From Nymphaea colorata (taxonomy: Eukaryota > Streptophyta > Magnoliopsida > Nymphaeales > Nymphaeaceae): DNA of 64,000 bases. The stretch lies in assembly GCF_008831285.2 (NCBI RefSeq), contig NC_045140.1, forward strand, positions 9,670,505 to 9,734,504, read 5' to 3'. The position numbers and the translations under genes are program-made. This document shows, one piece after another, positions 5,363-5,784 of this stretch (position 1 is the stretch's first letter; the number at the start of each line of letters is the position of its first letter). The notes beneath the pieces are model-generated. The model saw nothing but the letters and a program-made list of their open reading frames with translations, made no database searches and was not told the DNA's origin.

Positions 5363-5784
5363 TCAAGGTTTGCCACGCTCTTGTGTGTAGATGTAATCAG
5401 TATGAAGACATTCATCTGCACTTAGCCCTTTACACTCTTTATCATCCAACTTTCGCTCCTGCAAGATTAGAAACATCATCGAAACCCAAACTGTCTTGGA
5501 AAAGGCTCATGAAGAACTCTGAACGACCACAGATTTAATTAATTAGAATCATGAGGGCATGCAGCGATTACAAACATGAAAAGCAACCAATCAAGGTCTG
5601 GAAAAGTCTATAACAGGAGAACAAACACAGACCGTGCATGCGAAGCAAGACTTACAGATGCCAACAACTTTCTATTCCACAAGTTCAGCGGAGGAAGCTG
5701 GCCAGATTCTGTCATGCTCGAGGTGGCAGCTGCAGACATGAAAAGTAGAGAGGCAACCAAGAAAAGGAGGAAGTACTTGGCCAT
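5363..5784 (-). CDS. PSK: Phytosulfokine (PSK) peptide-hormone precursor, two exons
   Basis: Exon 1 is 5784-5656 (43 codons) and exon 2 is 5458-5363 (31 codons plus TGA). The 197-bp intron begins GTAAGT and ends GCAG, in phase 0. The 74-residue product starts [20 protein letters not shown], a clear secretory signal peptide, and ends [17 protein letters not shown]. YIYTQ is the exact PSK pentapeptide. In the known family both Tyr are sulfated by tyrosylprotein sulfotransferase in the Golgi, proteases release the peptide in the apoplast, and it is read by the receptor kinases PSKR1/2. The acidic Asp before the first Tyr that supports sulfation is present, as are two Cys upstream (KECKG and DECL). 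The basic RRTL-like stretch usual between the second Cys and the His-Asp-Tyr is absent, so the precursor is compact. The start was chosen because it opens the signal peptide; the upstream in-frame part is translated CT repeat and stands in for 5' leader. Confidence 0.9.

Follow-up and report, generated by a model that had tools for sequence, protein, structure and literature searches.

Known members of the phytosulfokine (PSK) precursor family share conserved dibasic residues 8-10 amino acids upstream of the mature peptide, which are common to the family without being part of the hormone, and this motif was the reason for the choice of the subtilase site tested in AtPSK4 (PMC2667306). The excision of PSK from its precursors is nevertheless described, in a review passage, as still far from understood (PMC10796568). 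The window analysed here, a 64-kb stretch of the Nymphaea colorata assembly (C3:9670505-9734504), contains a PSK gene whose product lacks the dibasic segment, and the locus raises the question of whether such a precursor belongs to a working gene and by which cleavages it could release its pentapeptide. A natural PSK precursor without the dibasic motif, with canonical paralogs available as in-plant controls, makes the need for the motif directly testable.

The window gene and its canonical paralogs

The gene occupies positions 5363-5784 of the minus strand and encodes a PSK precursor of 74 residues in two exons. Exon 1 (5656-5784) begins with an ATG at 5784-5782, encodes residues 1-43 and stays open up to the donor TCT/GTAAGT; the phase-0 intron (5459-5655) is 197 nt long with the borders GTAAGT...TTGCAG, and exon 2 (5363-5458) encodes residues 44-74 followed by a TGA stop at 5365-5363. 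Start, splice sites, frame and stop are all intact. A TATA-like element recognized by sequence match lies at 5862-5867 of the same strand, about 80 nt upstream of the ATG and within the region that aligns to a copy on chromosome 10. Residues 1-20 (5725-5784) form a probable signal peptide on hydropathy, the mean over sliding windows of 11 residues exceeding 2 across residues 4-20, with cleavage likely after the AAA at 18-20, a cut point that we take from the -3/-1 rule. Downstream follow an RKLL motif (residues 38-41; 5662-5673) of the dibasic RxxL, site-1-protease-like kind, the Cys pair of PSK precursors (C52...C60; 5408-5434), Asp64 with the PSK-alpha pentapeptide YIYTQ at residues 65-69 (5381-5398), which is near the C-terminus as in PSK-alpha precursors, and a C-terminal tail of ERGKP. 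The string DYIYTQ is found a single time when the window is read in six frames, against a chance expectation from base composition of 0.001 (2e-6 for HTDYIYTQ). A tblastn search of the window with the precursor returned, below E 1, only its own two exons, and a search of NCBIfam gave no match at E up to 1.

Several features can be set against published descriptions of the family. Asp64 directly precedes the pentapeptide, as PSK-alpha precursors have it, and this residue is described as the site of TPST and of phytaspase (PMC10796568). PSK precursors are quoted as having an N-terminal signal peptide and about 80-120 amino acids (PMC10796568), a range of which the window precursor falls slightly short; PSK proteins as small as 63 (PMC7734187) and 75 amino acids (PMC11942274) are on record.

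A Pfam PF06404 profile search of the genome (407,766,735 bases, 783 contigs) at E 0.001 yielded three loci from five scored candidates, all canonical and scoring 53-61 bits: L001 at C3:24.54 Mb, L003 at C4:9.86 Mb and L002 on C11. The window gene was not reported at this threshold. L001 and L003, which we take to be of the AtPSK4 / AtPSK5 type, resemble it in organization, with a hydrophobic N-terminus, a phase-0 intron placed 8 codons before the first Cys in the gene models, the Cys pair, the frame CL...HTDYIYTQ and a short basic tail ending in Pro. L002 has a different structure of three exons, the middle one ambiguous with four open versions. In a MAFFT alignment of the four precursors of the genome Cys52, Cys60, Leu61, His62, Asp64 and YIYTQ are invariant, and outside the C-terminal part the proteins are alike only loosely (41-42% identity to the window protein). 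Judged by homology, structure and hormone sequence, the window gene is a PSK-alpha precursor gene, and the sequence-only reading, which had recognized it by an exact DYIYTQ split over two exons, gains from the intron phase and position common to two paralogs.

For synteny, ORFs of at least 35 amino acids from the window and 30 kb of its left flank were compared with 30 kb around each paralog (in the case of L002, the initial 30 kb of C11); at E 1e-4 the matches were confined to transposons and the PSK exon itself. The plus strand of the window carries an adenylosuccinate lyase gene in pieces at 25992-41190 (Lyase_1 at 25992, ASL_C at 40954 and a further Lyase_1 match, below cut-off, at 27276). 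The introns of this gene are lengthened by a copia element at 34348-39618, whose end repeats are 99.6% identical and which is flanked by the 5-bp repeat ATTCT, and by a fragment of another retroelement, with reverse-transcriptase RNase H sequence, at 32526-33014. At 46416-57145 one LTR element is nested in another: the inner, a copia element, has a single long open pol frame at 50333-55739 and end repeats of 398 nt that are 99.5% identical, and the outer has end repeats of 239 nt (99.2% identical) and the flanking repeat AAAAT; these insertions look young. Plus-strand fragments at 19966-20397, 21535-21795 and 61889-62623 have, respectively, a Rieske domain, presumably of pheophorbide-oxygenase type, the DYW deaminase domain of a PPR protein, and a PPR repeat.

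The window precursor differs from its paralogs in the segment between Cys-Leu and His-Thr-Asp-Tyr. At the Leu61/His62 junction (5404-5405, minus strand), located by BLASTP and MAFFT alignments and by Pfam gap controls, L001 and L003 carry IRRTLVA and L002 carries KRRMMSEA, and the window precursor has none of these residues. The gap, earlier estimated at about seven residues, is exactly seven relative to L001 and L003 and eight relative to L002, and BLASTP against L001 places a single gap of exactly seven. What has been lost is thus the segment with the dibasic RRxL motif, as had been proposed, and all three canonical precursors of the same genome carry the motif. Their dibasic pairs start 9, 9 and 10-11 residues before the Tyr, and L001, L003 and L002 each have a single RxxL/M at this canonical place, 9-10 residues before it; the nearest pairs in the window precursor start 20 and 27 residues before it, outside the 8-10 residues typical of known members. 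RKLL, 27 residues before Tyr65, thus stands in contrast to the RRTL found 9 residues before Tyr in L001 and L003. An acidic pair that lies 13-14 residues before the Tyr in L001 is found as D58-E59 in the window precursor, only 6-7 residues before Tyr65.

As far as an enumeration of splice forms reaches, the missing residues are not supplied by alternative splicing. Combinations with GT/GC-AG borders, a donor between nt 31 and 260 of the gene, an intron no shorter than 60 nt and DYIYTQ kept open numbered 75, every one of which keeps the short junction segment and none of which adds the missing residues. Splicing cannot restore them because the DNA for Cys60-Gln69 is contiguous inside exon 2, and the short form survives this check, which the sequence-only reading had named as a possible refutation.

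A second short-form copy and the reach of profile searches

The genome was also scanned for DNA encoding DY[IV]YT followed by Q, H, N or K, and the context of all 38 matches was inspected. Since a reversed control pattern gave 87 matches, most of the 38 are chance occurrences. Five are of PSK type, namely the window gene, L001, L002, L003 and a further locus, L036; two encode DYIYTN, and the other 31 are without PSK-like context by eye. A pattern search for relatives matched 11 stretches in a set of viral contigs and 161 in a set of other genome contigs, with no relatives by tblastn in either set. Further short-form or other PSK copies may be present in the genome.

The two DYIYTN matches, L019 (C2:32239340, minus strand) and L041 (C9:22943844, plus strand), are related ORFs that end in FDSEDYIYTNSKP and FDSEDYIYTNSRP, each followed by a stop, with a hydrophobic signal-like exon upstream. 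The assembled L019 protein scores 19.2 bits on the Pfam PSK profile over nearly its whole length, short of the 25-bit cut-off; the protein of L041 gave no match, and its exon-2 donor is unclear. YIYTN is the pentapeptide of PSK-delta, which is called legume-specific in a review (PMC10796568), and these loci may represent a non-legume family of PSK-delta-like or other sulfated peptides.

L036, at C10:7836722 on chromosome 10, is 83% identical in nucleotides to the window gene over 620 columns, in an alignment that takes in the TATA region and reaches the 3' side. It carries the same short form (KECLRIDYIYTQECGKP) and has kept the intron, and so is not a retrocopy. A 4-nt gap in its exon 1 shifts the frame into stops, which makes L036 a pseudogene; a further 3-nt gap is frame-neutral, and L036 reads CLRI where the window gene has CLHT. 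In a comparison of the window and its left flank with 40 kb around L036, the matches comprised the gene itself, pieces of retroelements and a pair of short stretches in opposite orientation. Because L036 is also short-form, the in-frame loss of seven codons is placed before the duplication that gave rise to the two loci. With an intron divergence of 13.9%, set against the KS peak of about 0.9 of the Nymphaealean genome duplication (PMC7015852), the window/L036 duplication looks much younger than that event. An origin of the short form in misassembly, or a splice variant that supplies the missing residues, is so improbable that it can be set aside: no evidence for either was found, the short form recurs at this independent locus on another large contig, with the intron divergence just given, and all 75 enumerated splice combinations retain it.

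The window gene fails two tests passed by known PSK members, the dibasic motif and the Pfam score, and controls trace the low score to the gap. On PF06404 the precursor scores 18.2 bits (E 0.0052), below the gathering cut-off of 25, in a match of 34 residues over profile positions 46-87 (42 positions). Insertion of the seven canonical residues raises the score to 52.5 bits and insertion of seven neutral residues to 34.8; conversely, AtPSK4 scores 55.6 bits and falls to 24.2 after removal of the same seven residues, with AtPSK5 at 50.7. Since the gap alone drops the gene under the PSK cut-off, Pfam-filtered surveys can miss short forms, and the apparent universality of the dibasic motif may partly reflect how PSK members are found. 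A passage of a Rosaceae PSK survey describes the use of PF06404 and the removal of candidates with E above 1e-15 (PMC7734187). That survey is not proof of bias, because two of the three canonical paralogs (7e-15 and 6e-14) would also fail 1e-15 on the E-value scale used here. No PSK precursor without the dibasic motif was found in a literature search that covered titles, the openings of abstracts and text passages, so that short forms may well be in print, for instance in alignment figures and supplements; their absence from the literature is in any case weak evidence of rarity, because the Pfam cut-off would lose them.

Selection and functional status

The evidence for selection on the window gene is mixed, in that the frame and the core peptide survive and the exons diverge from L036 as fast as the intron. 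Differences between the two copies amount to 17/122 (13.9%) in exon 1, 13/96 (13.5%) in exon 2 and 26/187 (13.9%) in the intron, and nonsynonymous change is found in 20 of the 25 differing ungapped codons, four gapped codons being left out. The comparison with L036 gives no sign that the propeptide as a whole is constrained. A different picture is obtained around the peptide: across a ten-codon block, the changes that separate the window gene from L001 (6) and from L003 (8) are all synonymous. In a 12-residue block the window copy shows one synonymous change of its own (Q, CAA) that arose after its divergence from L036, and L036 differs there at D, H and T, with changes assigned to branches by comparison with L001 and L003 (less surely for the D). 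When neutral evolution was simulated at roughly half the divergence seen, with indel rates that are a rough setting, 0.8-4% of runs retained the open frame and the splice sites together with DYIYTQ, the two Cys residues, Leu61 and His62; this percentage overstates the case for function, because the gene drew attention by its intactness.

These observations bear on two readings of the locus. It is possible, though on the whole unlikely, that the window gene is decaying into a pseudogene: loss of the dibasic segment would have impaired it, selection would have relaxed, the chromosome-10 copy would have broken already, and the window frame would be open by luck. Equal divergence of exons and intron and the preponderance of nonsynonymous differences are what such decay would leave, the broken copy has progressed to two gaps in exon 1 and CLRI for CLHT, and the three canonical PSK genes that remain in the genome could cover the function. 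The decay reading has to contend with the fact that every gene feature of the window copy is intact, with the low neutral chance of such survival (inflated as evidence by the choice of an intact case), and with the lack of any nonsynonymous change in the ten-codon block relative to L001 and L003. We see an evenly balanced case for the window locus as a genuine, probably working PSK-alpha precursor gene whose dibasic codons were lost in frame before a later duplication. Function of the window gene itself, read from these sequence comparisons, is about an even call, and it is uncertain also because the only other short-form copy found is a pseudogene.

Possible routes of pentapeptide release

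If the window gene does work, its product would enter the secretory path, TPST would sulfate both Tyr of YIYTQ, the Asp at -1 being kept, and an Asp-specific subtilase of the phytaspase type would cut LHTD/YIYTQ. Any pre-processing that the dibasic motif possibly provides elsewhere would be unneeded here or done at RKLL (38-41), as by SBT6.1 for CLEL6, and the tail ERGKP would be trimmed by another protease. The cleavage motif LHTD (P4-P1) is identical to that of AtPSK4. SlPhyt2 is described as cleaving a synthetic peptide that has five precursor residues upstream, on the C-terminal side of an Asp that it requires at P1 (PMC13082318); because a peptide that short was cut, Asp-Tyr cleavage seems to be motif-independent in normal precursors too. 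Cleavage of the window precursor at this bond is plausible, and equally so in normal precursors. The passages of PMC13082318 and PMC10796568 contained no phytaspase test on a whole precursor without the dibasic motif.

The sequence-only reading had suggested that this member may be released through the Asp-Tyr bond alone, without the usual basic upstream site. The suggestion is compatible with the sequence but only partly supported. The bond, Asp64-Tyr65, is indeed retained, as had been stated, but the Asp-Tyr route has no feature that distinguishes the window precursor, given the peptide cut by SlPhyt2, and the Leu-His bond is kept as well. The word alone does not hold, because the pentapeptide also requires removal of the tail ERGKP, and the lack of a basic upstream site overlooks RKLL, 27 residues before the peptide. 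SBT3.8 is described as removing the PSK1 tail only with Asp at P1' (PMC13082318), and since the window tail starts with Glu another enzyme must trim it; Asp at the tail start is found in none of the four precursors of the genome.

The retained Leu-His bond admits a different first cut, in which an AtSBT1.1-like subtilase would cleave the short form at Leu61-His62, followed by aminopeptidase or tripeptidyl trimming in place of phytaspase. AtSBT1.1 cuts the AtPSK4 site peptide RRSLVL/HTD at Leu-His (PMC2667306), and the window precursor preserves L/HTD, as CL/HTD. Yet the positions most sensitive to alanine in the AtPSK4 site are P2-P4, and the first Arg (P6) also matters (PMC2667306); the window precursor reads A-D-E-C at P5-P2, so that D-E-C replaces S-L-V at P4-P2 and neither Arg is left. 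The enzyme is moreover reported in the same source to cut the PSK2/5 site more slowly and to have little or no activity on other AtPSK sites (PMC2667306), and release by this route is accordingly improbable.

Relocation of pre-processing to RKLL is a concrete hypothesis. Sites of RRxL type belong to the S1P/SBT6.1 class, with substrates defined by RxxL / RxLx (PMC13082318); PSK precursors are stated to contain potential SBT6.1 sites, and CLEL6 depends for its function on SBT6.1 pre-processing at a position well upstream of the peptide (PMC7162652). RKLL fits this definition and is the only RxxL/M motif in residues 21-64 of the window precursor. Its role as a relocated pre-processing site is only suggestive, because shuffling yields RxxL with a frequency of 0.32 and R[RK]x[LM] with one of 0.04. 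The larger proposition, that a water lily PSK branch gave up the dibasic site, moved pre-processing to RKLL upstream of the Cys pair and relies on the Asp-Tyr bond for release, in forms that PF06404 surveys easily miss, is at present an unlikely one.

With AtPSK4, processed by AtSBT1.1 (Srivastava 2008, PMC2667306), the window precursor shares LHTDYIYTQ and the Leu-His bond and differs by the lack of RRSLV at P2-P6. With tomato proPSK, the substrate of phytaspase 2 (Reichardt 2020, as described in passages of PMC13082318 and PMC10796568), it shares an Asp directly before YIYTQ. CLEL6, which is processed in two steps by SBT6.1 at RRLR / RRAL and then by the Asp-dependent SBT3.8 (PMC7162652), belongs to another peptide family, and SBT3.8 cuts before the Asp whereas phytaspase cuts after it. 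What the two precursors would have in common is a possible S1P-like site well upstream, RKLL in the window precursor, and an Asp at the border of the peptide.
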